64,000 bases of DNA from an uncultured Clostridia bacterium (GTDB lineage Bacteria; Bacillota; Clostridia; Oscillospirales; JAAYOS01). The notes beneath the pieces were generated by a model that saw only the letters and a program-made list of their open reading frames with translations, had not been told where the DNA came from and made no database searches. Of the stretch, positions 26,590 to 63,499 are shown piece after piece. Positions within the stretch are counted from its first letter, which is position 1. The number at the start of each line of letters is the position of its first letter. The stretch lies in the NCBI GenBank assembly GCA_947631015.1, contig CANRJS010000005.1, positions 1 through 64,000 on the forward strand, read 5' to 3'. The position numbers and the translations under genes are program-made.

Positions 26590-26851
26590 CATTCGCGGCA
26601 AATTCTGCTTGTACGTTTCCCCAAACGGCGCTTTGCGCCGTTTGGGGACCCCTTAAATTAAAATGCTCGCTCCGAATGAATCGGGGCTCCGCAAATTCGC
26701 CGCTCTGCGGCGAATTTAACCGCGCGAACCGGCGCGGAACGGCGCTTTGCGCCGTTTGGGGACCCCTTAAATTAAAATGCTCGCCTCGAATGAATCGGGG
26801 CCCCGCAAATTCGCCGCTCTGCGGCGAATTTAACCGCGCGAACCGGCGCGG
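26590..26851 (+). repeat. Hairpin-mosaic repeat, copies C and D (114-bp tandem)
   Basis: Two units of exactly 114 bases (26624-26737 and 26738-26851) with three visible differences. Each has the stem ACGGCG...CGCCGT, linker AAATTAAAATGCTCGC, stem around AATGAA (TCGAATGAATCGGGG), stem ATTCGCCG-CTCT-GCGGCGAAT, then CCGCGCGAACCGGCGCGG. The leading part has TTCGCGGCAAATT, the end sequence of the full element. It lies between the tuf terminator and the MFS promoter. Confidence 0.88.
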
Positions 26852-44882: not shown

Positions 44883-44957
44883 CGGGATGTAGGGTAACGG
44901 TCACCCACTTGTTTTGGGAGCAAGGTCAAGCTGGTTCGACTCCAGTCATCCCGACCA
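44883..44957 (+). tRNA. tRNA-Pro (anticodon TGG)
   Basis: 75 bases with encoded CCA. Acceptor CGGGATG/CATCCCG perfect; anticodon arm CTTGT-TTTGGGA-GCAAG gives TGG; T arm GCTGG-TTCGACT-CCAGT. The D arm is short (GGG-TAACGGTCA-CCC). CGGGATG start is typical of proline tRNAs. Confidence 0.95.
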
Positions 44958-44990: not shown

Positions 44991-45000
44991 GTTGGGTTTT

Positions 45001-45055
45001 CCCCAAACGGCGCAAAGCGCCGTTTGGGGACCCCTTTGATTGAAATGCTCGGGGC
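45001..45055 (+). repeat. Hairpin-mosaic repeat, truncated copy F
   Basis: Only the stem CCCCAAACGGCGC/GCGCCGTTTGGGG and the linker TTGATTGAAATGCTCGG are kept. It sits right behind the tRNA-Pro terminator. From here to 45127 only GC hairpin remnants are seen. Confidence 0.75.
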
Positions 45056-45127
45056 AAGCGGATTGCTCTTACGCACGCAGTCTGCCGCCGCATCGGCCGC
45101 AGCATCTCCGCACGCTTGCCGCACGGT

Positions 45128-46969
45128 TCAGCCTCCGTTCTCTCCGAGGTACCGCTTTATCTCCTCGGCGAAGCGTTTGCCGTAGCGCTGCAGCTTGTTC
45201 TGACCCACTCCGGCCACCGAAAGCATCTCCGTTTCGGTCGTCGGCTTCTTTGCCGCCATGTCCCGGAGCGTGGCGTTCGAGAACACCATGAACGCCGGTA
45301 TCCCCTCCTCCTTCGCCGCGCGATAGCGGAGGTCGCGGAGCGCGGCGTACAGTCCGTCTTCCTCCGTGCCGGCCTGTGTCCGCTTTGCGGCGGACGAAGT
45401 GTAGGCGCTCTTTCCTCGGACGCGCATCGTGACCGTCTCATGGCGGCGCGACGCGTCCTCCGCACGGGGAGTGAGAAACAGCGCCCCGTGAACGGGGTCG
45501 ACCCGGAGGTATCCCTGCGTTTTGAGGCTTTCCAGTATCTCCCGCAACCCATCGGACGAAACTCCTCGGAGCTTTCCGTAGACCGGAAGCCTGTCCAGCC
45601 CCAGGGCGAGGGTCTCCCTGTCCCGGCTGCCCCGGAGCGCCTTCATTATCTTCGCCGAGCCGAGGGAGTAGCCTATCCTCTCGCGGACAAGCCGCACGCA
45701 CTCGAAGACCGCTCCGGCCTCTCCAGTTATGTCCTTCTCGGAAAACGACCCGTCGCAGTTCCCGCAGTTGCCGCAGGTCTTCGGGTGCTTCTGCCCGAAA
45801 TAGTCGAGGATATACCCCCGCAGGCACCGGTCGGTCTCGCAGTAGCCGACCATCTCGCCGAGGCGCTTCAGCGCCTGCTCCGTGACCTTTGACTGCTCAG
45901 GCTCGGTAAGCTCCTCGCTCCCGCCGGAATGTTCTATGAGAAACTGCGCCGTCCGTATATCCCGCGCGGAGTAGAGCAGGATGCAGTCCGCGTCCGAGCC
46001 GTCCCTTCCGGCGCGCCCCGCCTCCTGATAGTACGACTCGATACTCTGCGGCATGCTGTAGTGGATGACGTAGGAGACGTTTGACTTGTCTATGCCCATT
46101 CCGAAGGCGTTCGTCGCCACCATGATGCCGCACCTGTCATAGATGAAGTCGTCCTGATTATTCCGCCGCTCCTCTTCGGTGAGACCGGCGTGGTACCTCG
46201 TCGCAGAGAGTCCGGCGTCGCGGAGCATCCGGCAGATGCTTTCGACGTCCCTCCGCGTCGAGCAGTATACGATGCCGCTCTTTTCCGCGCGCTCCGAGAC
46301 GAGCGCGAGCAGCGCCTCGTCCTTCTTTTTCGGCTTCATCACCTCGAAGCGGAGGTTCTGCCGGTCGAAGCCGGTGACTATACGGAGCGGCCGGTCCAGC
46401 CCGAGGGAGCGTTCTATGTCACGGCGCACGCGCTCGGTCGCGGTGGCCGTGAAGGCCGAGATGACGGGTCGGCGCCTCAGCTTTCCGACAAACTCCGATA
46501 TGCGCAGATAGCTTGGCCTGAAGTCCTGTCCCCACTGAGAGATACAGTGTGCCTCATCCACGGCGAGAAGCGATATCCGGAGCCTCTGCGCGACTGAGAC
46601 GAAGCCCTCGGCCGCGAGCCTCTCCGGGGCGATGTAGACTATCTTGTACCTCCCCTCAAGCAGGTTCTGATAGACCTTGTTTATCTGCCCCGCCGAGAGC
46701 GAGCTGTTTATGTAGGCCGCGGGGATCCCCGCACCCTTCAGCGCCGTCACCTGATCCTTCATCAGGGAGATGAGCGGGCTCACTACCAGCGTTATCCCCG
46801 TCATGAGTATCGCCGGTATCTGATAGCAGAGGCTCTTTCCGCCGCCCGTCGGCATAACGCCGAGCACGTCGCGGCCCTCCATCTGTGCGTCTATAAGCTC
46901 CTCCTGTCCGCCCCGAAAGGACGAGTACCCGAAGAAGCGCTTCAGCACGTCATACTTTTCTCCCGTCAC
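45128..46969 (-). CDS. recQ: RecQ-family ATP-dependent DNA helicase
   Basis: 613 residues. Walker A 'VLGVMPTGGGKSLCYQIPAI', DEAH in 'LAVDEAHCISQWGQDFRPSY' (the aromatic-rich RecQ loop), motif VI 'QEAGRAGRDGSDADCILLY', zinc-binding 'CLRGYILDYFGQ...CGNCGNC', RQC winged helix, and a C-terminal HRDC-like domain ('LYAALRDLRYRAAKEEGIPA'). It unwinds DNA 3' to 5'. The GTG start overlaps the stop of the Lhr-like helicase gene (GTGA), so it is translationally coupled to the TerB/ATPase/helicase genes and is probably part of that system rather than only the housekeeping RecQ. Confidence 0.96.
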   Translation of the reverse strand: MTGEKYDVLKRFFGYSSFRGGQEELIDAQMEGRDVLGVMPTGGGKSLCYQIPAILMTGITLVVSPLISLMKDQVTALKGAGIPAAYINSSLSAGQINKVYQNLLEGRYKIVYIAPERLAAEGFVSVAQRLRISLLAVDEAHCISQWGQDFRPSYLRISEFVGKLRRRPVISAFTATATERVRRDIERSLGLDRPLRIVTGFDRQNLRFEVMKPKKKDEALLALVSERAEKSGIVYCSTRRDVESICRMLRDAGLSATRYHAGLTEEERRNNQDDFIYDRCGIMVATNAFGMGIDKSNVSYVIHYSMPQSIESYYQEAGRAGRDGSDADCILLYSARDIRTAQFLIEHSGGSEELTEPEQSKVTEQALKRLGEMVGYCETDRCLRGYILDYFGQKHPKTCGNCGNCDGSFSEKDITGEAGAVFECVRLVRERIGYSLGSAKIMKALRGSRDRETLALGLDRLPVYGKLRGVSSDGLREILESLKTQGYLRVDPVHGALFLTPRAEDASRRHETVTMRVRGKSAYTSSAAKRTQAGTEEDGLYAALRDLRYRAAKEEGIPAFMVFSNATLRDMAAKKPTTETEMLSVAGVGQNKLQRYGKRFAEEIKRYLGENGG

Positions 46970-49197
46970 CGCTGTCCCGTCTCCCCGTCTGCAAGCCGCT
47001 CAAGCTCCGCCATGTCCGCGCACAGTCCGTCGAAATCGAGGAAGTCCTCTATATACTGCTTCCGCAGCAGCTCGCGCGGGATGAACTCGTTGTACTTGCC
47101 GAGTATCTGCACATCCTCCGGCAGCGGCAGGGCGTACATATCCGGCTCGGAGGACAGGATGTCGAAAATTATCGCCTCCAGTTCCTCCTGCGAACCGTCA
47201 AAGACGGCCTCGAGGTACACGCAGGTCGGCCACGGATACTTGCTCTTTACTCCCCTGCTCCGCAGGAGATAGTTGAGCGTCATTATCTGCCGCGTCCCGA
47301 CCCACGGGAATATGGCGTAGCGCTTGTCCGAGAGCGCGGTGCCGACGTTCGTGAGCACGCCGCTGTTCCGCGTGATATAGCGTATCTCCGTTAGGCGCTC
47401 CGCGCAGCCCGCGCTGAGGTAGGAGTATGTGTCGTCCGAGAGAAGGATGCTCCGCATCTTCCGCATGAGGACGGTGTGCAGCTCGTTTTCAAAGTCCACG
47501 TCCCAGTCCACGACGGATATGCCGGGCACGCGCTTGACAAATATCACCTTGCTCTTGACATTGACGTCCACCGTCTCCCATGTGAGACCCGCGAGCGCGA
47601 AGCGCGTGCCCACGGGATACACCTTGTCGACGGTGCCTATCATGCGGTTCTCGTCCTTGACCTCGAGGTACTCCGGGGCGAGGAACACTGTAAGGAACTT
47701 GTGGCTGTTTGCTATCTTTTCTCCCTCTCTGCCTATGATGAGGCCGCCGCGCTCGGTGCGCTCAAGCTGTTCCTCCGAAAGCATGTACTCAAGGAGCGTC
47801 CTGTAATCCTCCTTTGACACCTCGCGGAACGAACCGAGCGTCAGGATGCTCCCTGCGAGCGCCGCCGCGCTCATCTCGCCGTTTGACTTGAGGGTGCTCA
47901 TCGTCTGATGGTAGACGAGGTTGTACGCGTGCAGGCGCGGCGGGATGGGTTCTATCCAGTGCTCCTTCAAGTATAGCTCGATTATTGCTATAGTGCGGAT
48001 GAAGTCCCAGTTTATCGGGCCCAGTGTGTCGTCCGAATTTATCCTGAGGTTTTCCACGAACGTGAAGAGCAAACGGCTCACCTGTCCGCGCCGACCGCAC
48101 CGTCCGAGCCTCTGCGCGAAGCTCGAGACGTTGTACGGCGTGCCTATCTGCACCACCTGGTCGAGCGACCCGATGTCTATGCCGAGCTCGAGCGTCACCG
48201 TCGCGCCGGTGACTATCTTCTCGTCCTCCGACTTCATCTCGTCCTCGGTGGTCTCGCGCAGGAGCGCGGAGACGTTTCCGTGGTGGACGCGGTAGACGTC
48301 CGGCGCCTTGTTCTTCAGGGCTATCTCGCGGAGGTTTGCCATGACGAACTCTATCTCCTCGCGGCTGTTCGCGAAGATTATCGTCTTTTTGTCAAGAGTG
48401 TTGCGGAACAGGTACTCGAAGTGCTCGCGGTCGCCGAGACCCATCCCCGCGGCGGAGTTGCCGGGAAGGACGGTGTTCTCCACGTCGCGCAAGTCGGCGT
48501 AGTTGACAAACCGCTCGACGTGCAGGCCTATCCGCTTGCTCCCCTCGTCGGTGAGGGGCGAGACGCACCCGCGCCCCGTGCCGGTGTTCAGCCAATCCTC
48601 CGCGAGTGAGACGTCCCCGAGCGTCGCGGAAAGTCCTATCCGCCTCGGGTTTATCCCGACGAGGCGGTTCAGCCGTTCGAGCACGCAGAGGAGCTGTATG
48701 CCCCGCACGTCCCGCATGAACTGGTGCACCTCGTCGATTATGACGTAGCGGAGGTCGGAAAACATCTTGAGGCACGCGCCGCGCTTGTTTGTCACAAGGC
48801 TCTCAAGTGACTCGGGCGTTATCTGAAGTATGCCCTCCGGCTCCTTTATGAGCTTGTTTTTGGCCGTCACCGACGCGTCCCCGTGCCACTTCGTAACCTT
48901 TATGTGCGACGCGAGAAGCAGCTGCTCGAGCCGCTTGAACTGGTCGTTTATGAGCGCCTTGAGCGGCGAGATGTAGAGCACGCCCACCGACCTCGGCGGG
49001 TCGTTGTATATCTCCGTGAGCACGGGAAGGAACGCCGCCTCGGTCTTGCCGGAGGCGGTGCCGGAGGAGAGCAGGAGGTTCGAGTCACTGTCGAATATGA
49101 CCTCGCACGCCGCGACCTGATTTGCCCGCAGCTCCTCCCACTTGTTCTCGTATATGAAATCCTGTATAAACGGCGCAAGCCTCGAAAAAGCGTCCAT
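46966..49197 (-). CDS. DEAD/DEAH-box (Lhr-like) helicase, Shango SngC-like
   Basis: 743 residues. SF2 helicase: Q region 'ELRANQVAACEVIF', Walker A 'LSSGTASGKTEAAFLP', Ia 'YISPLKALINDQFKRL', DEVH in 'RYVIIDEVHQFMRD', motif III 'RIGLSATLGD', motif IV 'KKTIIFANSREEIEF', V/VI 'GATVTLELGIDIGSL' and 'QRLGRCGRRGQVSR'. The C-terminal third lacks named motifs. Close to the helicases that pair with BrxD in type 2 BREX and to the helicase of Shango. GGGGAGCG precedes ATG 49197; 26 bases after the ATPase gene. Confidence 0.88.
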   Translation of the reverse strand: MDAFSRLAPFIQDFIYENKWEELRANQVAACEVIFDSDSNLLLSSGTASGKTEAAFLPVLTEIYNDPPRSVGVLYISPLKALINDQFKRLEQLLLASHIKVTKWHGDASVTAKNKLIKEPEGILQITPESLESLVTNKRGACLKMFSDLRYVIIDEVHQFMRDVRGIQLLCVLERLNRLVGINPRRIGLSATLGDVSLAEDWLNTGTGRGCVSPLTDEGSKRIGLHVERFVNYADLRDVENTVLPGNSAAGMGLGDREHFEYLFRNTLDKKTIIFANSREEIEFVMANLREIALKNKAPDVYRVHHGNVSALLRETTEDEMKSEDEKIVTGATVTLELGIDIGSLDQVVQIGTPYNVSSFAQRLGRCGRRGQVSRLLFTFVENLRINSDDTLGPINWDFIRTIAIIELYLKEHWIEPIPPRLHAYNLVYHQTMSTLKSNGEMSAAALAGSILTLGSFREVSKEDYRTLLEYMLSEEQLERTERGGLIIGREGEKIANSHKFLTVFLAPEYLEVKDENRMIGTVDKVYPVGTRFALAGLTWETVDVNVKSKVIFVKRVPGISVVDWDVDFENELHTVLMRKMRSILLSDDTYSYLSAGCAERLTEIRYITRNSGVLTNVGTALSDKRYAIFPWVGTRQIMTLNYLLRSRGVKSKYPWPTCVYLEAVFDGSQEELEAIIFDILSSEPDMYALPLPEDVQILGKYNEFIPRELLRKQYIEDFLDFDGLCADMAELERLADGETGQR

Positions 49198-49223
49198 ATT
49201 CGCTCCCCTGTCTCTGTAAGATG

Positions 49224-50540
49224 TTATATCTCAAAGTCCACGAAGTCGCTGTGTACTTCTTCCTCCGAGAGACCGCCCTTCGCGAGCTCGAAGCTGTTCG
49301 AGCCGAGCACCTCCTGCACGCTCCTCTCCGGGTTCTGGTAGAGGATGTTTATGAGCTCGATGAAGTCGCGTATCATCTCGCGGGGCGTGATGTGCGTCTC
49401 CGCGCCGACGCGGTTGTACTCCACGGTGAGGAAGTACAGCAGGTCCTCGTGGCCGAGGCGCGGGGTGTATCCGTAGAGGTCGGCGTGTATGTCCCGCAGC
49501 TTCTCAATCAGGATATACATCTCCTCCTGCGAGAGCATCCGGAGTTGGATTATCGGCGCCGTGAGGTCGTGCAGCTCGTCCGTCGCGAAGTGTCCCTCCG
49601 CAAGCCGCGAGCGGAGCGCCTCATAGCTGAACACTCCCCTGTACCTGTCCTCGATGCACTGCGGCGTTCCGCCCATAAGGAAGCCGATGTGCTCCGCCTT
49701 GCCCTGAAGGACGTCGTTATACATCGTGAGTATCTTTTCGTAGTTATTCGCGCGGGTTATCGAGTTCGGTATCTTGAAGATGTTCACAAGCTCGTCGATT
49801 ATCACGAGCAGTCCCTTATACCCCGCGCCGGTGAGGAACGCCGCAAACAGCTTGAGAAAGTCGTACCACGTCTCGTCCGAGACGATGAAGTTTATCCCGA
49901 GGTCGTCCTTCGCCTCTCTCCGCGTCGGATACTCCCCACGGAACCAGCGGAGGACGTTCGACTTGAGTGCGGAGTCGTCGGAGCGGTAAGCCTGCCAGTA
50001 GAGCGCCACCGCCTTCGCAAAGTCGAAGCCGCCCACCATTCCCTCGAGCGACCCCGCGACGGCATATATCCTCTGTTCTACCTCGCGCTCGAATTTCGCG
50101 CCCTCCGTGCCGGTCCCGACGCGCACCGCAGTCTGTATGCCGCTTATCCAGCGTTCGAGAATGAGCGGCAGAGCGCCGCCGTCCGGCTTTGCCTTGGTGG
50201 AGAGATTGCGGACAAGCTCCCTGTACGTGGCAAGTCCCTGACCCTTCGTGCCGGCAAAGCGGCGCTCGGGCGAGAGGTCGGCGTCCACGACGGCAAAGCC
50301 TCTCGCCGTCGCGTGATTGCGTATCGTCTGGAGCAGGAAACTCTTGCCGCTGCCGTACTTGCCGACTATGAAGCGAAACGACGCCCCACCCTGCTCTATC
50401 ATGTCAATATCGCGAAGGATGGCGGCTATCTCCTGCTTTCTGCCGACCGTGATGTACTCCAGCCCCACGCGCGGCACGACGCCGCTCTTCAGCGCGTTAA
50501 TGAGTATGCCCGCTATCCTCGCCGGAACCCTGTTTGCCAT
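49224..50540 (-). CDS. BrxD-like ATP-binding protein (DUF2791), Shango SngB-like
   Basis: 438 residues. AAA/STAND-like P-loop ATPase: opening 'RVPARIAGILINALKSGVVP' and 'RVGLEYITVGRKQEIAAILR', Walker A 'FIVGKYGSGKSFLLQTIRNH', Walker B 'GLLVIIDELVNIFKIPNSIT' and a sensor region 'EHIGFLMGGTPQCIEDRYRG'. This is the DUF2791/BrxD family, linked in known defence systems to Lhr-like helicases. The start lies 44 bases inside the preceding gene, showing tight coupling. Probably loads or controls the helicase encoded next. Confidence 0.9.
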   Translation of the reverse strand: MANRVPARIAGILINALKSGVVPRVGLEYITVGRKQEIAAILRDIDMIEQGGASFRFIVGKYGSGKSFLLQTIRNHATARGFAVVDADLSPERRFAGTKGQGLATYRELVRNLSTKAKPDGGALPLILERWISGIQTAVRVGTGTEGAKFEREVEQRIYAVAGSLEGMVGGFDFAKAVALYWQAYRSDDSALKSNVLRWFRGEYPTRREAKDDLGINFIVSDETWYDFLKLFAAFLTGAGYKGLLVIIDELVNIFKIPNSITRANNYEKILTMYNDVLQGKAEHIGFLMGGTPQCIEDRYRGVFSYEALRSRLAEGHFATDELHDLTAPIIQLRMLSQEEMYILIEKLRDIHADLYGYTPRLGHEDLLYFLTVEYNRVGAETHITPREMIRDFIELINILYQNPERSVQEVLGSNSFELAKGGLSEEEVHSDFVDFEI

Positions 50541-52419
50541 ACTTCTCAGTCATCTCCCCCAGCCGTTCGGCGTAGTCGTCGTATATCATAAGTCCGTCGT
50601 CAAGGACGCTGTCCCCGACGGCGTCCGCCGCCTTCTCGTTTATCCCCTCCGCTAGCACCTCCGGCATGACGCCGCTTGCCCGCGCGAAGCTCTCCATGTC
50701 CCCGCCGCCGAGGACGTGCCGCAGCGCCGCGAGCTCGAGCGGCGCGAGCGCCGCTCCGAGCGCGTCCCACTCGTCTGCCGGCTCGTCCGCGCCGAAGGAC
50801 GGCGCTTTGCCGGCGGCGTCCGCGCCGCTTAGGGCAGGCTCCGTGGCGTTCCCGGCTCCGCCATCCTCCGCGTCTTTCGCGACGCTCTCGGGCTTTACCT
50901 CCGGCACGCGCTCCGCACTGTCGCAGTACGTTTCTTCGTCCGCTATGTGTTCCACGCCGTCGCAAGGCAGTTTTTCGTCCGACTTATTCTCCGCGCCGCT
51001 TCCCGGCAGGACGTCTGCCGGGGTGGCGCTTCCGCTGCGCCGTTCCGTCGGGACTGCCGCCCCGCCGGACGCGTCCTCCTCCACGAGCAGCGCCTCCTGC
51101 GTCTCGAGCGCGTCACGGCGTATCCGCGCGAGCGCGTCGCTCGACACAGTAACGACGGTCTTTGTTGCCTCGCGGTAGAACTCCGCCGCCGCGCGGACTA
51201 TCGTCTCCTCGAGCGGCAGACCCGCCTCCGCGAGGCTCTGCCGCGTCTCCCCGTCGAGCATGGCGGGGTTTGCCGTGAGTTTGTGGCGGTACTTTGCGAG
51301 CCGCCGAAGCTCCGCCTCCATGCGCTTCAGAACAAAGCCCGCGAGCCGCTTGCCGCTGCTCGACGTCAGCGCCGTGCTGTATGTCCAGACGCTGTTCCGC
51401 GAGACATACACCTCGTTCGGCAGGAGCACCACCGTCCTGTCCCGCTGCCGGCGGGCGTCGCGGAAGACCGCGCCCCTGAACGGCGTCCACGCGAGCGGGT
51501 GCTTAGTGTGGGCAAAGAGAAGGTCGTCAAAGGCAATTCCCGCCTCCGAGCATTTCTCCCGCAGGCGCTCCGCCGTGAAGTCCGCGCAACGCTCGACTAG
51601 CTCGCGGTTCTCCGCGTAGAACGCCGAGGCGCGGATGTCATAGCCCGAAAGCTCCGCGAGCAGCCCGAAGCCGTCCTTCGGGTCGTTGAGCATCGGATAG
51701 TAGCCCGAAAGAGCGTGCTCCGCCGCGAAGTCGCGGAAGCTCCCCTCAAGGTCGTAGTAGATGTGGTAGTCCTTTATCCAGCCGGGGACGTACTTGTCGA
51801 GCGTGAGGTCGTACTCCCGGAACCTCCTCCAGAAGTCGATGATCTGCTCGATGCCGTCCTTCGGGCTCGCCGTGCCGATGTTGTTTATCTGCTCGTAGAT
51901 ATAGATGAAGGCGTAGGAGAGCGACGTCGCGCGGACATCTCCCGCGCGCACACGCGTCCGCCAGGTGAAGTAGGTGCGGAACTGCTCGTAGGAGAGCATC
52001 CTGTAATCCGGGTAGTACGCGGAAAACGGCGCTTCCCCCTCGTAGTCGTCCTCGAAGTCCGCCATGAACCTCGCCTGCTCGGTGAAGATGACGGCGTACT
52101 CCCTCCGCGCGCCCCGGCTCGGGAACCGCTCCCCGTCGTATGCCCGCGTCTCGTACCTCCGCGCGATGCCGCGCATCTCCATGAAGCGCTCGCGCTTCGC
52201 GTCCCGCTCGGGCGGCGCTATCCTCTGCGCCCGCGCGACAAACTTTCCCACGCCCTCGATTGGGCTTGCGGAGTAGTCTATCTCGTAAAACATCCCGTCC
52301 GAAAAGGAGGCGTCGGAGCCGCCGTCACGGCTCGGAGCACCGCCCGCGTTCGGTCTCTCCCCGGCGCGGGCGGGTATCCTGAACGGCTCATATTTCTTTT
52401 CCGAGTTGTCCCCGCTCAT
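50497..52419 (-). CDS. TerB-N/TerB-C domain protein, Shango SngA-like
   Basis: 640 residues. A TerB-N-type domain spans about 40-260 ('FYEIDYSASPIEGVGKFVAR', 'YYPDYRMLSYEQFRTYFTWR', 'ATSLSYAFIYIYEQINNIGT'). A middle region (about 260-450) carries 'LAWTPFRGAVFRDARRQRDR', followed by a low-complexity Ala/Glu/Pro-rich linker (about 455-545). A short TerB-C-like end ('LAALRHVLGGGDMESFARAS', 'EGINEKAADAVGDSVLDDGL') closes it. TerB-like helices are linked to membrane or metal stress and to defence. First gene of the operon; GGAGG precedes the ATG. Confidence 0.85.
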   Translation of the reverse strand: MSGDNSEKKYEPFRIPARAGERPNAGGAPSRDGGSDASFSDGMFYEIDYSASPIEGVGKFVARAQRIAPPERDAKRERFMEMRGIARRYETRAYDGERFPSRGARREYAVIFTEQARFMADFEDDYEGEAPFSAYYPDYRMLSYEQFRTYFTWRTRVRAGDVRATSLSYAFIYIYEQINNIGTASPKDGIEQIIDFWRRFREYDLTLDKYVPGWIKDYHIYYDLEGSFRDFAAEHALSGYYPMLNDPKDGFGLLAELSGYDIRASAFYAENRELVERCADFTAERLREKCSEAGIAFDDLLFAHTKHPLAWTPFRGAVFRDARRQRDRTVVLLPNEVYVSRNSVWTYSTALTSSSGKRLAGFVLKRMEAELRRLAKYRHKLTANPAMLDGETRQSLAEAGLPLEETIVRAAAEFYREATKTVVTVSSDALARIRRDALETQEALLVEEDASGGAAVPTERRSGSATPADVLPGSGAENKSDEKLPCDGVEHIADEETYCDSAERVPEVKPESVAKDAEDGGAGNATEPALSGADAAGKAPSFGADEPADEWDALGAALAPLELAALRHVLGGGDMESFARASGVMPEVLAEGINEKAADAVGDSVLDDGLMIYDDYAERLGEMTEKYGKQGSGEDSGHTH

Positions 52420-52482
52420 ATCCTCCTCCGCGCACGCCTTTACTTTTCCTCAAGCCCTCAAAAGAAACAAATGTACTGTCAT

Positions 52483-52511
52483 ATTATAGCACGCCGCGCG
52501 GATGATTGCAA
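52483..52511 (-). promoter_or_regulatory. Promoter of the Shango-like operon
   Basis: Minus strand TTGCAA (52511-52506), 17-base spacer, TATAAT (52488-52483), about 60 bases before the TerB-N gene. No operator palindrome is evident, suggesting steady expression. Confidence 0.85.
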
Positions 52512-52535
52512 CCGCCTTTGACGCGGACATGAAAA

Positions 52536-52567
52536 GCGGCGGCAAAAGTACCCACTTCTGCCGCCGC
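52536..52567 (-). terminator. Hairpin after the glycoside hydrolase gene
   Basis: GCGGCGGCAAAAGT at 52536-52549 pairs with ACTTCTGCCGCCGC at 52554-52567 with one mismatch, followed in the minus direction by TTTTCATG. Confidence 0.7.
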
Positions 52568-52581
52568 CGTCCGCTTCCAAC

Positions 52582-56107: not shown

Positions 56108-56183
56108 GGACACTTAGCTCAGCTGGTAGAGCACCTGCTTGACGTGCAGGGGGTCAGCGGTTCGATTCCGTTAGTGTCCACCA
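56108..56183 (+). tRNA. tRNA-Val (anticodon GAC)
   Basis: 76 bases with encoded CCA. Acceptor GGACACT/AGTGTCC, D arm GCTCAGCTGGTAGAGC, anticodon arm CCTGC-TTGACGT-GCAGG (GAC), T arm GCGGT-TCGATTC-CGTT. Confidence 0.97.
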
Positions 56184-56220
56184 AAAAATAAGCAGTCCCG
56201 AAGGGGCTGCTTATTTTTTG
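56184..56220 (+). terminator. Terminator of tRNA-Val
   Basis: AAAAAATAAGCAG-TCCCGAAGGGG-CTGCTTATTTTTT, a symmetrical stem with a T-run. Confidence 0.88.
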
Positions 56221-56345
56221 GGCTTCGGCGGCTTTGCCGCCTCCGCCCTCTGATTGAAATGCTCGGCGGAAATGAATTCCGCCTGCGCAAAGTTGCTTGC
56301 CTATGGCAAGCAACTTTAACCGCGCGAACAGGCGCGGTTGCCGCC
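56221..56345 (+). repeat. Hairpin-mosaic repeat, copy G
   Basis: Starts directly after the terminator T-run. Stem CGGCGGCTTTGCCGCC, linker GATTGAAATGCTC, stem GGCGGAA-ATGAA-TTCCGCC, stem GTTGCTTGCC-TAT-GGCAAGCAAC, end CGCGCGAACAGGCGCGG. Confidence 0.85.
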
Positions 56346-56424
56346 TTCGCGGCAAAGCTAACGAGGGCTGAATATGATTTCCTGCGCGAACAGGCGCGGT
56401 TTGGTTGATGGTCACTCGAGATGT

Positions 56425-56492
56425 AACCGCTGACCCCCCTGTTATTCATTGCGTCAGCACCGTTGGCGGTTCGATTCCGTTAGTGTCCACCA
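56425..56492 (+). pseudogene. Decayed copy of the tRNA-Val 3' end
   Basis: 56466-56492 repeats the last 27 bases of tRNA-Val (56157-56183) exactly, 309 bases downstream, including CCA. Just before it, 56425-56441 is an inverted copy of the tRNA region 56147-56162 with one extra C. There is no complete cloverleaf. It may be a duplication product or the trace of an integration at the tRNA. Confidence 0.7.
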
Positions 56493-56524
56493 TCAAAAAA
56501 AGCAGCCTTTGGCTGCTTTTTTTG
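56493..56524 (+). terminator. Second terminator, after the tRNA 3' fragment
   Basis: AAAAAAAGCAGCC-TTT-GGCTGCTTTTTT: same plan as the tRNA-Val terminator but a different stem. Confidence 0.8.
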
Positions 56525-56650
56525 ATGGGCTTGGCGGCAAAGCCGCCAAGTCCTTTGATTGAAATGCTCGGCGGAAATGAATTCCGCCTGCGCAAAGTTG
56601 CTTGCCTATGGCAAGCAACTTTAACCGCGCGAACAGGCGCGGTTTGCAGA
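56525..56650 (+). repeat. Hairpin-mosaic repeat, copy H
   Basis: Stem CTTGGCGGCAAAGCCGCCAAG, then an approximately 85-base core identical to copy G (from ATTGAAATGCTCGG to GCGCGAACAGGCGCGG). Bases 56645-56680 hold another terminator-like stem CAGAGG...CCTCTG with TTTTT. Confidence 0.85.
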
Positions 56651-56679
56651 GGCAGTTCATAAGGACTACCTCTGTTTTT

Positions 56680-56960
56680 GGGCTTCGGCGGCCTTGCCGC
56701 CTCCGCCCTTTGATTTAAATGCTCGCCCCGAATGAATCGGGGCTCCGCGAAGTTGGCGGCTACGCCGCCAACTTCAACCGCTGCGAACCGCGAGGGCGCA
56801 AACCTTTTCTTTCTCCGACATTCTACTGCCCTCGCTCGCAATATTCGCTCCGCGAATATTGCCCGACTTTGTGCAGCTCCTACTCGGGCGCATCCGAGCG
56901 CGAGGGCTGAATATATTCCTCATCGAAATATATTCAGCCCTCGTAAGCTTTGCCCGCTTC
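56680..56960 (+). repeat. Hairpin-mosaic repeat, copy I
   Basis: Stem CGGCGGCCTTGCCGCC, linker TTGATTTAAATGCTCG, stem CCCCGAATGAATCGGGG, stem GTTGGCGG-CTACG-CCGCCAAC, then the long end shared with copy A (GCTGCGAACCGCGAGGGCGC, GCAATATTCGCTCCGCGAATATTGC). Compared with copy A the third stem has changed on both arms (TTAGC/GCTAA to TTGGC/GCCAA). Confidence 0.85.
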
Positions 56961-57340: not shown

Positions 57341-57625
57341 GTGATTAGGATACTCCTGAGCCGCAAGCTTGGCGAACTTCGTTGGACGCAGGCCGACCTT
57401 GCCCGCAAGACGGGTATTCGGCCTACTACAATCAATGAACTGTATCACGAGATGGCAGAGAGGGTCAACCTCGAACATCTGGACCTTATCTGTGAAGCGC
57501 TTGACTGCGACCTGAGCGAGATACTTGTCCGCACTCCCAATACGATCCCGAAAATCGTAAATAACCGAGCCGGGAACAAGGTGAGCTCCGTCGAAGACAG
57601 CGAGGAAAAAGGGGCAGGGAATTGA
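57341..57625 (+). CDS. XRE-family helix-turn-helix regulator
   Basis: 94 residues. A Cro/C1-type helix-turn-helix fills residues 6-62: 'LSRKLGELRWTQADLARKTG', 'IRPTTINELYHEMAERVNLE' and 'LDLICEALDCDLSEILV', the small YozG/HipB-like kind. The tail is charged. GTG start with GAGGTGG upstream. The inverted repeat upstream suggests autoregulation. No partner toxin or phage gene is beside it; the next gene is the giant surface protein. Confidence 0.9.
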   Translation: MIRILLSRKLGELRWTQADLARKTGIRPTTINELYHEMAERVNLEHLDLICEALDCDLSEILVRTPNTIPKIVNNRAGNKVSSVEDSEEKGAGN

Positions 57626-57802: not shown

Positions 57803-57823
57803 TCTAAAGAGGTGCTAAGCAAG

Positions 57824-60800
57824 ATGAAAAAAAGGATTCTCTCCCTCCTGCTTGCGCTGGTTATGACTGCGTCGATGCTGCCGGTATTCTCCGTCGCCGC
57901 CGCAGGGTCTGACTACGAACCGACAGAGGTTTCGTCCGACTACTTCTATAATCAGCTCAACGACCGCGCGAAGGCCATTTACAAAAAGCTGCTTGATGAG
58001 TTTACAAACACCGCCACCAAGGAAAAGTATTACGAGGGAACACAGCCCATCGACCTCATCGGTGTCAACTATCTTGATGGTTCCGCAAAGAGCGGTCCCA
58101 TCATAACCGAGAACGACATAAAGGAGTACGCAAAGGGCAACAAGGACATCTTCAACGACTTCTGCGCCGCGAAGGACGCCCTTGACCTCGACCACTCCGA
58201 GCTGTGGTACATAGACTCCGGATATCTCACCTTCCGCGTGACGCACGGCTCCGTGGAGGCAGAGTACGGAGACGGCTACCACGTCCTTATCGGTCCCGGC
58301 AGAGGCGATACCTATCTGCTCGGCGGACTTACCGCCGACAAGATCGCGCTCAATGGCGAGACCATCAAGACCATGGACGAGAAGATCAACGCCACCATCA
58401 ATAATATGGTAAGTAAGGCTGTCTCCGCGCTGAACACTGCCAATGCCGAAGGCACCTACAGCAAGCCGGACCAGCTGGCGTTCCTTGCGACGAACATCCA
58501 TGACCAGATAACCATGGGCATCCACTATCGCTACGAGATAGAGTGCACCTATCCCGAGGACGCCAAGTTCATCCGCACCGTCTACGGCATGCAGACCCAC
58601 GAGGGCGTCTGCGAGGCTTACGCCCGCACGCTTCAGGTCTGCCTGACAAGGCTCGGCATCGAGAGCGTGCTTATCCACGGCGTACAGACCAAGGGTACGC
58701 CCGAGGATCATATGTGGAACGCCGTGAACATCCCCAACACGGACGCACAGGAGACCCCGCGCTGGTACGTCATCGACGCCACGTGGGACGACCCGCTCAC
58801 CGCCACCTATACCGGCGAGCGCGACCTCTCGTTCCATTACGGCGAGGACGGCAAAGAGACCAACACCTACCTGCTCGTCGGTCAGTCGCTCGTGGGCGAG
58901 CATTGGCGTCCCTCCGGCTATGTCTCCACCGGCAACTTTGAGTTCAAATATCCCACGATCGAGACCGCCGCATACTCCGGCGCCACTATCCTCGGAGACG
59001 ACAACGGTCTCAAGATCGATTACTCCACCGGCGGCTCCGAGGAAGGAGTGCCTGCCGGTGTGTTCTCGGTCACTTATCGTGGCATGGACGCCCAGACCGC
59101 CCGCCAGAAGGGTCTCTACTTCATGGTGAAGATGTACGACTACCACACCGACGGTACCGCCGACGTGATGGACGAGTGGTACTATGCCGACGCATCCTTT
59201 GCAGCCACCGGGAGCAATCCCTACTTCGGCGACAACGGCGGCGCGCTCCGCATCTACACCCCGACCTGCGAATACGTCGAGATAGCCGTCACCACCCGCG
59301 AGCCCGACCATCGGGACACTTGGGAGCTTGATCCCAGCTCCGGCGGCAACTACCTCACCCAATCCAAAGGTGAAGCCGGCTACTTCCACGGCGACGAGAG
59401 CGAGATAATAGCCCAGTCCGGCCTGCTCTACAACGTCAACTCCAAGTACGAGGCTCCGCCCTACGTGCTCACGCAGTTCCCCGCCCCCAACGGCAACTGC
59501 ACGGCGGGCTATGATTACCGCTTCAAGGTCACCTATGACGACCTTCTCTATCACATCCTGCCCGCAGACGTCAATGCCGAGAGCGGCATTGCCGCCATCG
59601 ACGCCTTCCAGGACGACTCCGCAGCCGCGCTCAGCAAGACTGTCCGCGTCCGCTACACCACGATACAGCAGGACCTCCACACCGGCGGCGAGAAGTACGT
59701 CCAGATAGCGGGCGAGCTTCCCTTCGACGTGAACCGGGACGGTTATGTGGATATGCCCGGCGTCGACGATACCGTCAACCCTTACGTCAATTTCAAGTGG
59801 ATTTACGCCACCGATGCCATCGCGGACGGCGGCGAGGGTCTCGACAAGTGCCCCAACACGGCTTACCACGCAAACCACAACGAATGCTCCGTTACGGACG
59901 GCTGCCCCATCGTCGGCGTTGAGTTCAACTTCCGCGCCTCCGACCAGTGGATAGACGACATCACGGAGTACAACTTCGCCATCGAGGGCGTTGTGGGTTC
60001 GCGTTCCTCCAAGGTCCCGAACAACTTCTCCGTTATCTCCTGCATCCCCGGCCTGTGCCCGGCCTGCTACCGCAGCCAGGGTATCGACTGGAACCTCTGG
60101 GGTCAGCCCACTCTGCTTGACGCCCCCGAGAACCTTGACCTCGAAGCCATGGCAAAGTCCGGCGGCACCGACGCTGAAACGCTTGAACAGCTCAACAGCG
60201 AGATGAACCGCAGCGACCTGAACGGCCGCCTCATGCTCGTCGTCGAGGACAAGAGCAAGGGCGCGGGCAACCGCGAGGACTACGAGAAGATCGAGGACGC
60301 GCTCAGCAAGGACTCGGAGTATCAGGGCCAGGTTGCCGGCGGCGAGGTTGTCGGTTCCTCGGTCTTTGAGATAAACTTCAACCGTATCTGCCCGATGGTC
60401 AAGCTCAAGCCCAATCAGGGACAGTCGCTGCGCGTACAGGTCGGCTACCCCGCAGGCATCACCTATGAGACGCTGAAGGATTACGACCTGCAGGCGTACC
60501 ACTTCACCCGCTGCGCCGAGGAAAACGAAAGCATGTATCCCTGCTCCCACGCAAGCGAGGAGGGACACAAGTGGGGCGATCACATCGTCGGCGTGGACAA
60601 GATAACCATCGTCCCCACCCCCTACGGCATGGTCATAATGTGCGACGCATTCTCCCCGTTTGAGATAGTCGCGGTGAAGAAGACCGCCGAGGCAGCCGCT
60701 ATAGCAGCCGCCGAGACCGGCAGCACCCTCGTCGTCGTTTCGGACGGGAACGGCTATGTTGAGGTCGGCGGCAAGAAGGCCGTCGGCGAAGACGGAAACG

Positions 60801-63499
60801 TCACCTTCGCCTCCGGCGAGCAGAAGACCTTCAAGGTCGTCGCGAACGAGGGTTATTCGGTAGACACCGTCTCTCTCGGCGGTGAGAAGCTGACCGTAGA
60901 CGGCAACGGCGAATTCACCGTCACCGAAGGCTCTGACTACTTCGCACACAGCGATGTTCTGAGTGTCACCTTCCTGCCCACCGAAGTCAAGACCGAAGAA
61001 GTCAGGGAGTACGGCGAGACCGTCGTCGCCTCCGTCTGCACACACCCCACTCTTATTCCTGACGAGAACGACACCACCGAAGAATCCGAGGCCAGCTGCA
61101 CGACTCCCGGATACAAAAAAGCTCAGGTCTGCTCGGATTGCGGTCAGACTGTCGTTCCCGCAACCGTGATACCCGCTACCGGTCACACCTTCGATGCGCA
61201 GACAAAGGACAGGAAAGATGTCACCTGCACTAACGGCGTAGAGATCCCGGAGGTTCGGTGCAAGACCTGCCATGCTGTCGTTTCCGAGGCGATAAGCATT
61301 CCTCCGCTCGGCCATGACTTTGAGAACTACGAAGACCAGGGCGAAGCCACCTGCCAGGGCCAGCCGATGGTTGGCAAATGCACGCGGTGCGGCGCGTCCA
61401 GCAGCCCTGTCATGAACAAGGAAGCCGCCGTCGCCCACAGCTTTACCGCGAACAAGACGGTCGTCTCCCCGGCCACCTGTGAGGCAAACGAGCGCATCCA
61501 ATACCGGTGCCAGTGGTGCGACCAGACAACCGAGGAGGAAGTCGCGGGTACCATAAAGGAACACACAGACAACGGCAGCGGCTTCTGCACCTACTGCGGT
61601 AAAAAGCTGTGTGATATAAACGGCGGACATAAATGGGAAGAGATAGCTAAGGTCGAACCCACCTGTGAAGAACCCGGCAGGACCGCCTACAAGAAGTGCT
61701 CCGTCTGCGGAGAAATAGAGGGGACGATCGAGACCATCCCTGCGCTCAATCATGACTTTGGCGGCGGGCACACCGCCGGAACCAAGTGTTCGCGCTGTGA
61801 TAAGACACTTCAGAGCGATCAGCACACATGGGAAGATATGCCGTCCCGCGCTGCCACCTGTGACGAACCCGGCTCCGAGGGCGGCAGCTGGTGCTCGCAG
61901 TGTCACTTTATCAACGAGCAGCCCAAAGAGGTTCCTGCTCTCGGTCACAGCTGGGATGCGGATAGCGCTGAGATCAAATGGGCTGAGGGCGGAATCCCCG
62001 CTGCAAATGTGACGTTCACCTGCAAAAATGACCACGAGCATACGATAACCGTCCCCGCAACCGTCACCCCGATCGGGGAAGTAACGTGTGACGCCACCTC
62101 GGTGGAGTATAAGGCTTCCGTTACGGTTCCCGGCACACACATAGTCAAGGAGGATTTCGAGACTCAAACATTGGCCGCTGCCGCGTCCGAGCACAAATTT
62201 GACGAGGAGCACGTCAAGATAACCGAAGCCACCTGCACCAAGCCGGAAACGCGGGAGTATACCTGCACAGTCTGCGGACAGACCAAATTTGAGACCGTCG
62301 GCGATCCCCTGCCCCATAACGTGACCGATCTCAAGGAAGGCACCAAGCTCGCGACCTGCACCGAACCCGGAACGCTCGTCGGAATTTGCAGCCTCTGCCA
62401 CGAGCAGGTGGAGGAGACCGTCGCTGCCCTCGGTCACGACTACGTGAACGGCATCTGCACACGCTGCGGCGCGACCAACACCTCCTACACCGCGCCGCCC
62501 TCCGTCCCGACCTCCAAGACCGAGACGGTCACCGCTGCCGACGGCACCAAGACCACGACCGTCACCGACCCCGACGGCAGCAAGACCACGACCGTCACTA
62601 CCACGGACGGCGTAGTCGGCACCACCAAGACCGATGCCGACGGAAGCATCACCTCCGTTGAGGTCACGATGTCCTCCGCCCCCGAGGACGGCAGCGCCGT
62701 CGTCGCGCCCGTTGAGGTCAAGGCTTCCGCCTCCTCCGAGGACGCTCCCGAAATAGGCATCACCGTCAGAGAGGGCTCGGCGCGCGTGGAGATCCCCGTC
62801 GAGGACGTGAGCCACGGCACCGTCGCCGTCGTCGTTGACAAAGACGGGAACGAGACCGTCGTCCGCGACTGCGCCGTGGATGAGAACGGTGTCATCATCA
62901 CCGTAGACGGCAGCGTCACGGTAAAGATAGTCGACAGGAGCGTCGACTTCACCGATGTTCAGACTACCGGCCACTGGGCGTCCGACGCGGTAGAGTTTGT
63001 CGTCGCCCGCGACCTCTTCAGGGGCACCGGCACCGGTGTGTTCTCCCCCGAGACCGCCATGGAGCGCGGAATGCTCGTCACCGTTCTCCACCGCCTCGCG
63101 TATGAGCCCGAAGCCGTCAGCACCGAAATGACCTTCGGCGACATTCAGAGCAGCGACTATTTCGCCGAGGCTTCCGCATGGGCGAACGCCAACGGCATAG
63201 TCGAAGGCTACAACGGTTCCTTCCGCCCGCACGACGATGTGAGCCGCGAGGACCTTGTCACCATCCTCTACCGCTACGCGAAGTTCAAGGGCTACGCGAC
63301 CGAGACGGACGGCAACGCTCTCGCGTCCTTCACGGACGTTCAGGAGATCAAGGGCTACGCCGTCGACGCGATGAACTGGGCGGTGAGCGTCGGCCTCGTG
63401 AACGGCGTTTCCGCCGGCAAGCTCGCGCCGCAGTCCGGCGCGAAGCGCGCGGAGGTCGCCGCTATCATAGAGCGCTTCTGCGAAAATGTCGTGAAGTAA
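57824..63499 (+). CDS. Giant surface protein: transglutaminase-like domain, Cys-rich repeats, three SLH domains
   Basis: 1891 residues. Signal peptide 1-27 ('ILSLLLALVMTASMLPVFSV'). Transglutaminase-like domain with Cys263 ('THEGVCEAYARTLQVCL'), His296 ('EDHMWNAVN') and Asp318 ('WYVIDATWDDPL'), a complete triad. Residues about 1070-1555 hold at least seven repeats with paired cysteines of the form C-TxPG...C-xxC-G...LGH, as in secreted Clostridia adhesins. A Thr/Asp-rich 'DGTKTTTVTDPDGSKTTTV' stretch follows, then SLH domains at about 1709, 1769 and 1832 to the end ('FTDVQTTGHWASDAVEFVVA'). SLH units bind pyruvylated wall polymer. ATG 57824 is preferred to a GTG four codons earlier. The domain could crosslink or cut proteins outside the cell. 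Confidence 0.93.
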   Translation: MKKRILSLLLALVMTASMLPVFSVAAAGSDYEPTEVSSDYFYNQLNDRAKAIYKKLLDEFTNTATKEKYYEGTQPIDLIGVNYLDGSAKSGPIITENDIKEYAKGNKDIFNDFCAAKDALDLDHSELWYIDSGYLTFRVTHGSVEAEYGDGYHVLIGPGRGDTYLLGGLTADKIALNGETIKTMDEKINATINNMVSKAVSALNTANAEGTYSKPDQLAFLATNIHDQITMGIHYRYEIECTYPEDAKFIRTVYGMQTHEGVCEAYARTLQVCLTRLGIESVLIHGVQTKGTPEDHMWNAVNIPNTDAQETPRWYVIDATWDDPLTATYTGERDLSFHYGEDGKETNTYLLVGQSLVGEHWRPSGYVSTGNFEFKYPTIETAAYSGATILGDDNGLKIDYSTGGSEEGVPAGVFSVTYRGMDAQTARQKGLYFMVKMYDYHTDGTADVMDEWYYADASFAATGSNPYFGDNGGALRIYTPTCEYVEIAVTTREPDHRDTWELDPSSGGNYLTQSKGEAGYFHGDESEIIAQSGLLYNVNSKYEAPPYVLTQFPAPNGNCTAGYDYRFKVTYDDLLYHILPADVNAESGIAAIDAFQDDSAAALSKTVRVRYTTIQQDLHTGGEKYVQIAGELPFDVNRDGYVDMPGVDDTVNPYVNFKWIYATDAIADGGEGLDKCPNTAYHANHNECSVTDGCPIVGVEFNFRASDQWIDDITEYNFAIEGVVGSRSSKVPNNFSVISCIPGLCPACYRSQGIDWNLWGQPTLLDAPENLDLEAMAKSGGTDAETLEQLNSEMNRSDLNGRLMLVVEDKSKGAGNREDYEKIEDALSKDSEYQGQVAGGEVVGSSVFEINFNRICPMVKLKPNQGQSLRVQVGYPAGITYETLKDYDLQAYHFTRCAEENESMYPCSHASEEGHKWGDHIVGVDKITIVPTPYGMVIMCDAFSPFEIVAVKKTAEAAAIAAAETGSTLVVVSDGNGYVEVGGKKAVGEDGNVTFASGEQKTFKVVANEGYSVDTVSLGGEKLTVDGNGEFTVTEGSDYFAHSDVLSVTFLPTEVKTEEVREYGETVVASVCTHPTLIPDENDTTEESEASCTTPGYKKAQVCSDCGQTVVPATVIPATGHTFDAQTKDRKDVTCTNGVEIPEVRCKTCHAVVSEAISIPPLGHDFENYEDQGEATCQGQPMVGKCTRCGASSSPVMNKEAAVAHSFTANKTVVSPATCEANERIQYRCQWCDQTTEEEVAGTIKEHTDNGSGFCTYCGKKLCDINGGHKWEEIAKVEPTCEEPGRTAYKKCSVCGEIEGTIETIPALNHDFGGGHTAGTKCSRCDKTLQSDQHTWEDMPSRAATCDEPGSEGGSWCSQCHFINEQPKEVPALGHSWDADSAEIKWAEGGIPAANVTFTCKNDHEHTITVPATVTPIGEVTCDATSVEYKASVTVPGTHIVKEDFETQTLAAAASEHKFDEEHVKITEATCTKPETREYTCTVCGQTKFETVGDPLPHNVTDLKEGTKLATCTEPGTLVGICSLCHEQVEETVAALGHDYVNGICTRCGATNTSYTAPPSVPTSKTETVTAADGTKTTTVTDPDGSKTTTVTTTDGVVGTTKTDADGSITSVEVTMSSAPEDGSAVVAPVEVKASASSEDAPEIGITVREGSARVEIPVEDVSHGTVAVVVDKDGNETVVRDCAVDENGVIITVDGSVTVKIVDRSVDFTDVQTTGHWASDAVEFVVARDLFRGTGTGVFSPETAMERGMLVTVLHRLAYEPEAVSTEMTFGDIQSSDYFAEASAWANANGIVEGYNGSFRPHDDVSREDLVTILYRYAKFKGYATETDGNALASFTDVQEIKGYAVDAMNWAVSVGLVNGVSAGKLAPQSGAKRAEVAAIIERFCENVVK

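Follow-up and report, generated by a model that had tools for sequence, protein, structure and literature searches.

Known Shango systems and the locus under study

Shango is an anti-phage system of three genes, for which phage protection has been demonstrated in Pseudomonas (PMC10250203). Its helicase, SngC, clusters with the BrxHI, DruE and DpdJ helicases in one clade (PMC12278908). BrxD and BrxHI of bacteriophage exclusion (BREX) form a tightly linked dyad, in which BrxD is proposed to load or activate the helicase (PMC12839542). Regarding Shango itself, no published mechanism was found in the literature. Here we describe a Shango operon of an uncultured Clostridia bacterium, in which the genes sngA, sngB and sngC are followed by a coupled recQ. 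The window, meaning the whole stretch of DNA that was analysed, comprises 64,000 nucleotides (positions 1 to 64,000 of contig CANRJS010000005.1). What is new here is the lineage-specific coupling of recQ to a known system, and the more interesting lead is a probable SOS control of Clostridial Shango.

Four minus-strand open reading frames in the window, overlapping or closely spaced, run in the order sngA-sngB-sngC-recQ (Table 1), with an overlap of 44 nt between sngA and sngB; the Pfam domains of all four products score above their cut-offs. The initial annotation had read a TerB-N protein, a DUF2791 ATPase and an Lhr-like helicase in one operon as the Shango gene set, and this assignment was borne out by the PADLOC profiles (SngA, E=1.9e-66; SngB, E=2.1e-180; SngC, E=1.1e-218). 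The profile check that it had proposed places all three proteins in Shango and not in BREX: SngB scores 598 bits with its own PADLOC profile versus 160 bits with that of BrxD, SngC scores 727 bits versus 390 bits for BrxHI, and the PADLOC SngA profile is the sole family matched by SngA. Because SngB and SngC lie far above the BREX look-alikes and SngA matches no other family, the locus is, as judged from sequence, a genuine three-gene Shango operon on the chromosome, and the copy in the window is expected to act in defence. The order A-B-C is that of the published system; most of the Clostridial loci that were read share it, as do five plasmid loci. BREX was considered as an alternative and rejected, as no PglZ, PglX, PglW or BrxC occurs among the neighbouring proteins tested. 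The likeness to the BrxD-BrxHI dyad of BREX type 2 lies in the relationship of SngB and SngC to these proteins and in their similar adjacency, whereas the window has a TerB protein and BrxD and BrxHI scores much below those for SngB and SngC.

Compared with the Shango systems of P. aeruginosa PA14 and E. coli, the window agrees in all three proteins by profile, in their order and in the overlapping or close arrangement of the genes. It differs from them in four features, which are the coupled recQ as a fourth gene, a disordered linker of about 100 residues in SngA, a stable location on the chromosome, where neither mobile nor further defence genes were found adjoining, and a promoter with a LexA-box-like element. 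The linker, at residues ~449-547, is of low complexity and rich in Ala, Glu and Asp. In an AlphaFold2 model of SngA (mean predicted local distance difference test score, pLDDT, of 78.8), the linker falls below 50 and the N-terminus is also poorly predicted, while the rest is predicted well. Comparison of SngA with solved structures and fold searches gave nothing significant, with weak winged-helix matches only (E >0.7). Shango is patchy in the class, with a high-scoring SngB in about 18 of 293 genomes, and phage and viral collections gave no SngB match. A decaying copy was seen in a sister genus (genome G008, locus L006, on the same contig as L046), in which sngC is cut to 206 amino acids and sngA and sngB are intact.

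Coupling of recQ to the operon

The start codon GTG of recQ overlaps the TGA stop of sngC, as the initial annotation had reported, and the resulting GTGA junction and the GGGGAG preceding it are identical across four species, i.e., the window species and those of genomes G004, G005 and G006. Co-translation of recQ with the helicase gene, which had been proposed from the overlap, is supported by this conservation. The predicted product is a full RecQ with helicase, zinc-binding and HRDC domains, as annotated, and it also contains an RQC domain that had not been listed. It scores 697.9 bits against the cut-off of 640.2 of the TIGR01389 equivalog and carries the full domain set and motifs of bacterial RecQ; the window copy stands apart from other bacterial RecQ proteins in closing a defence operon and in being the single copy of its genome. 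A search for a second recQ found none, with one full match in a genome that is 98% complete. PADLOC calls the same protein DpdF at 2.8e-190; this label was rejected because the NCBIfam DpdF profile gives only 214 of the 550 bits required, and only the helicase core is common to both. The DpdF label on an ordinary RecQ (45128-46969) is a trap for automated defence annotation.

The gene that follows sngC was read in two samples, namely 20 loci taken within the class and family of the window, and the 80 best SngB loci, with one genome per species, from 84,980 species. After removal of four duplicates from 72 listed genomes, 68 genomes with at least 1 kb after sngC remained, and addition of the window and G004, in which sngC and recQ lie on split contigs with a readable junction, gave 70. 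The gene next after sngC is recQ in 4 of these 70 genomes (window, G004, G005 and G006), all of one small genus of gut Clostridia, and in none of the 66 genomes outside it, where the next gene varies from locus to locus. The five annotated plasmid loci have no recQ beside Shango either. Across the class, RecQ was found in 73 of 293 genomes and in 4 of the 18 with a high-scoring SngB (the window genome counted), and the presence of RecQ is not associated with that of Shango. In G029, G017 and G264, which have both, recQ lies on a different contig from Shango. The initial annotation had suggested RecQ as a general Shango partner and had proposed counting its adjacency in Clostridia; the count confines the adjacency to the lineage of the window, and the suggestion does not hold. 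Because adjacency occurs in one genus only and there is no class-wide co-occurrence, recQ is best identified, from the loci compared, as a lineage-specific capture and not as a fourth Shango gene.

Other repair-type genes were noticed by eye beside Shango, namely a recG-like gene after sngC in L031 and, on the opposite strand, an sbcC-like gene in L015 and a dinB-like gene in L078.

A LexA-like box at the promoter and enrichment of SOS boxes at Clostridial Shango promoters

The operon is preceded by a promoter with an extended -10 element (Table 1), about 64 nt upstream of the sngA ATG. By consensus alone, such a promoter is no better than chance (2 found vs 1.7 expected); it forms a conserved block in four species amid diverging surroundings, and the bases just after it, ACAGTACATTTGTTTC, are conserved in the four species as well. 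The promoter described in the initial annotation was found; its constitutive character is doubtful because a LexA-box-like element, GTACATTTGTTT, lies directly after the -10 element, one mismatch from the Gram-positive LexA box. In Bacillus the LexA box reads GAACN4GTTC, and in Clostridioides difficile lexA and recA have GAACN4GTTT (PMC4234289). A box with the same spacer as that of the window, AAACATTTGTTT, is present upstream of the genome's own lexA. LexA may bind at the window box, and the window promoter may be damage-inducible.

As the box in the window and that at the genome's own lexA had been seen first, 65 sngA loci were scanned from -220 to +60 around sngA with the consensus GAACN4GTTC/T on either strand; 330 open reading frames of the same loci with an upstream gap of at least 80 bases served as controls. 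Consensus boxes were found at 17 of the 65 sngA loci versus 3 of the 330 controls (Fisher p = 5e-12, a value that overstates independence, since some loci are related, though their spacers and positions vary). Perfect palindromes numbered 9 of 65 versus 0 of 330 (p = 5e-8), and shuffling, with a pattern closely similar to the consensus, yielded a mean of 0.9 and a maximum of 5. The data themselves prompted the scan, which had not been planned in advance, and the box definition was varied, both looser and tighter, over three scans, with enrichment in all three. The box-bearing loci are L008, L030, L031, L033, L041, L050, L053-L055, L061, L066, L067, L069, L073, L079, L080 and L097. Many boxes touch or flank the -10 element, such as TATAATAAGAACAGAAGTTC of L050 and GAACATTTGTTCtggacatggTATAAT of L055 (Bacterium D16-50, a cultured relative), the latter with the perfect box GAACATTTGTTC. 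Among plasmid loci, a Paenibacillus Shango (L153) has the box GAACGTGCGTTC at -160; no exact box of the scanned kinds was found in a second Paenibacillus plasmid or in the E. coli, Mesorhizobium and Halocatena loci.

With consensus boxes at 17 of 65 sngA promoters, many of them at or beside the -10 element, Clostridial Shango resembles members of the Clostridial and Bacillus LexA regulon, from which the window box differs by its one mismatch. The enrichment points to the SOS response as a frequent switch for Clostridial Shango operons, and SOS control of Clostridial Shango is probable. The fuller proposal, in which Clostridial Shango would be SOS-inducible under direct LexA control and recQ would be, in the window genus, a damage-induced fourth gene on one transcript with it, has a little less than an even chance in our view. 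No paper connecting Shango with LexA was found in a literature search; the one paper that mentions both deals with something else. If Clostridial operons are controlled by LexA, the trigger would be DNA damage or replication distress, and the activity of Shango would be tied to prophage induction.

Role of RecQ and competing explanations

The explanation that we favour, with moderate confidence, is that a Shango operon has been joined at its 3' end to the only recQ of its lineage, and that RecQ is a helper co-regulated through a shared transcript and coupled translation. In such a scheme, SngB, an ORC/Cdc6-like AAA+ ATPase, would load or activate SngC on invading or damaged DNA, after the model of BrxD-BrxHI, with SngA, the TerB protein, as a possible sensor or platform. 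Through the LexA-box-like operator, the operon would probably be raised by DNA damage, phage attack on the genome included. One transcript is expected to extend from sngA to recQ, so that RecQ would rise with the operon. RecQ is a 3'-5' helicase, and E. coli recQ is itself damage-inducible; the protein could act on broken or stalled DNA and either aid repair or supply single strands. On this view, RecQ probably helps under shared regulation and is not an obligatory Shango subunit, and it may have a role in defence. The fusion provides a natural experiment on drawing a repair helicase into a defence operon.

The most serious competitor, plausible but somewhat doubtful, is that recQ is a pure passenger, which came to lie behind sngC by rearrangement, borrows the promoter and has no relation to defence. 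The confinement of the adjacency to one genus fits this explanation, as does the finding that the genes downstream of Shango differ almost everywhere. The kinship of the protein fits as well: in a tree of 55 RecQs, those of the window genus are joined by G282, from the same order (support 99/90), and next by G009, from the same family (89/59), and SngB was not found in either genome. The simplest reading of the tree, which is only suggestive, is that a recQ lineage of the window's own order moved behind sngC. A search for a donor gave, as the nearest RecQs, proteins 46-53% identical over most of their length and 55-62% over the helicase core alone, and RecQs of the class match it over full length at 43-53% identity; RecQ matches in phage and viral collections are ordinary and distant. 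A mere passenger is harder to reconcile with an exact overlap kept over a synonymous divergence (dS) of about 0.2 in four species and, if the promoter is LexA-controlled, with a change of recQ regulation that is sensible for a repair gene.

A true four-gene variant of Shango, in which RecQ would be a working subunit, acting for SngC or a nuclease by unwinding the ends or forks of phage DNA, appears unlikely. It draws on the stop/start overlap conserved in four species and on purifying selection. The ratios of nonsynonymous to synonymous substitution rates (dN/dS) among the four species are 0.15-0.20 for RecQ, 0.03-0.07 for SngB and SngC and 0.27-0.36 for SngA, and recQ is under purifying selection that is less strict than on SngB and SngC and stricter than on SngA. 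Neither SngB nor RecQ is present in G003 (93% complete), a fifth species of the genus, as such a variant would also have it. However, recQ is next to sngC in none of the 66 other Shango loci, the three Shango genomes with a recQ on another contig keep the two apart, and the genome's only RecQ must also serve any general RecQ role.

Several observations weigh against the favoured explanation. RecQ has diverged more quickly than SngB and SngC, as would suit a looser tie. The mismatch of the window box falls in the first half-site, and the downstream half reads GTTT in place of GTTC. The lexA operator of the genus is known from its sequence alone, the lexA promoter being the only one examined. 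The literature consulted gave no phage data for any Clostridial Shango. The position of RecQ in the tree rests on long branches and is suggestive, and the absence of SngB from G009, a genome only 47% complete, is weak evidence.

It is quite improbable that in the window lineage the operon serves as a module for general genome maintenance instead of phage defence. Its stable chromosomal place in sister species, a native base composition, the lack of another PADLOC match of note among six neighbours and the SOS-type boxes that precede many of the Clostridial operons speak for such a module, but are outweighed by its patchiness in the class, its absence from one species of the same genus, the truncated sngC in the sister genus, the occurrence of Shango on plasmids elsewhere and the phage protection shown in Pseudomonas (PMC10250203).

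Scattered Shango genes in another clade

In a clade of Oscillospiraceae-like genomes, SngB is about 60% identical and the three genes are scattered over two or three places; a few unrelated genes at most intervene between sngB and sngC, or the two are on separate contigs (L081-L094 and L099-L102), and sngA is located elsewhere (L178-L185). Each of the 15 genomes tested retains the full set, every gene in single copy at the thresholds used, with sngA in pieces in G304. An AbiD/Abi_2-like gene lies directly upstream of sngA in all eight sngA loci read (four of the loci tested by Pfam and three by PADLOC), and no SOS box was found at the sngA loci of this clade in the scan. The family of one of these genomes has SngB in 8 of 80 genomes, and this scattered Shango, too, is lineage-restricted. 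Operon-based defence finders would probably miss such systems.

Genomic setting and neighbouring features

The initial annotation had placed the operon beside a tRNA-Pro gene, a common site of acquired islands. The tRNA gene is there, convergent with recQ, but an island is not indicated: apart from one chance 12-mer, the window has no second copy of the tRNA-Pro 3' end, no attachment (att) site was found, no integrase occurs among the neighbouring proteins tested, and the G+C content at third codon positions (GC3) of the four genes, 0.82-0.85, is within the range of rpoB and other neighbours. PADLOC on six neighbours gave no other defence match of note. The neighbours encode a DUF5597 glycoside hydrolase, a C26 peptidase, a patatin, a dienelactone hydrolase and a radical-SAM protein. 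The location of the operon is stable in sister species, the same genes flanking it on both sides in G005, and its acquisition predates the split of the four species. Two approaches to the insertion itself were discarded. Comparison with G003 gave no clean empty site, its dienelactone-hydrolase region being rearranged, and the family mates G001, G002, G007 and G008, whose flanks are not syntenic, allowed no dating.

Table 1. Positions of the operon genes, their control elements and adjoining features in the window
Feature	Position	Strand	Evidence or remark
sngA, TerB_N + TerB_C protein, 640 aa	50497-52419	-	PADLOC SngA, E=1.9e-66; Pfam above cut-offs
sngB, BrxD-like AAA+ ATPase, 438 aa	49224-50540	-	PADLOC SngB; Pfam BrxC_BrxD (formerly DUF2791)
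sngC, superfamily 2 (SF2) helicase, BrxHI/Lhr-like, 743 aa	46966-49197	-	PADLOC SngC; Pfam DEAD + Helicase_C
recQ, complete RecQ, 613 aa	45128-46969	-	Pfam DEAD + Helicase_C + RecQ_Zn_bind + RQC + HRDC; TIGR01389
GTGA overlap of sngC stop and recQ start	46966-46969	-	Same in window species, G004, G005 and G006
Sigma-70-type promoter TTGCAA-17-TATAAT, extended -10	52483-52511	-	Conserved block in four species
LexA/SOS-box-like element GTACATTTGTTT, directly after -10	52465-52476	-	One mismatch from GAACATTTGTTT; conserved in four species
Terminator-like hairpin of the upstream glycoside hydrolase gene, separating that gene from the operon	52535-52568	-	
Dispersed palindromic intergenic repeat between recQ stop and tRNA-Pro 3' end	44999-45075		
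tRNA-Pro(TGG), convergent with recQ	44883-44957	+	

The dispersed palindromic repeat between recQ and tRNA-Pro is also present at 26619-26761 and 56192-56755, with the core CCCCAAACGGCGCTTTGCGCCGTTTGGGG followed by CCTTTGATTGAAATGCTCGG. Among the matches listed, it occurs about 50-67 times per genome in four species of the genus, and none of the matches listed for G003 covers these bases. The 3' end of a tRNA-Val gene (56157-56191) is repeated with 91% identity at 56466-56500, 309 bases downstream and beside the same palindromic repeat family, and resembles a small tRNA-end duplication. Further along the window, 57812-63499 encodes a secreted-type protein of 1895 amino acids with S-layer homology (SLH) domains and a weak transglutaminase match, which adjoins a small helix-turn-helix (HTH) gene at 57341-57625.

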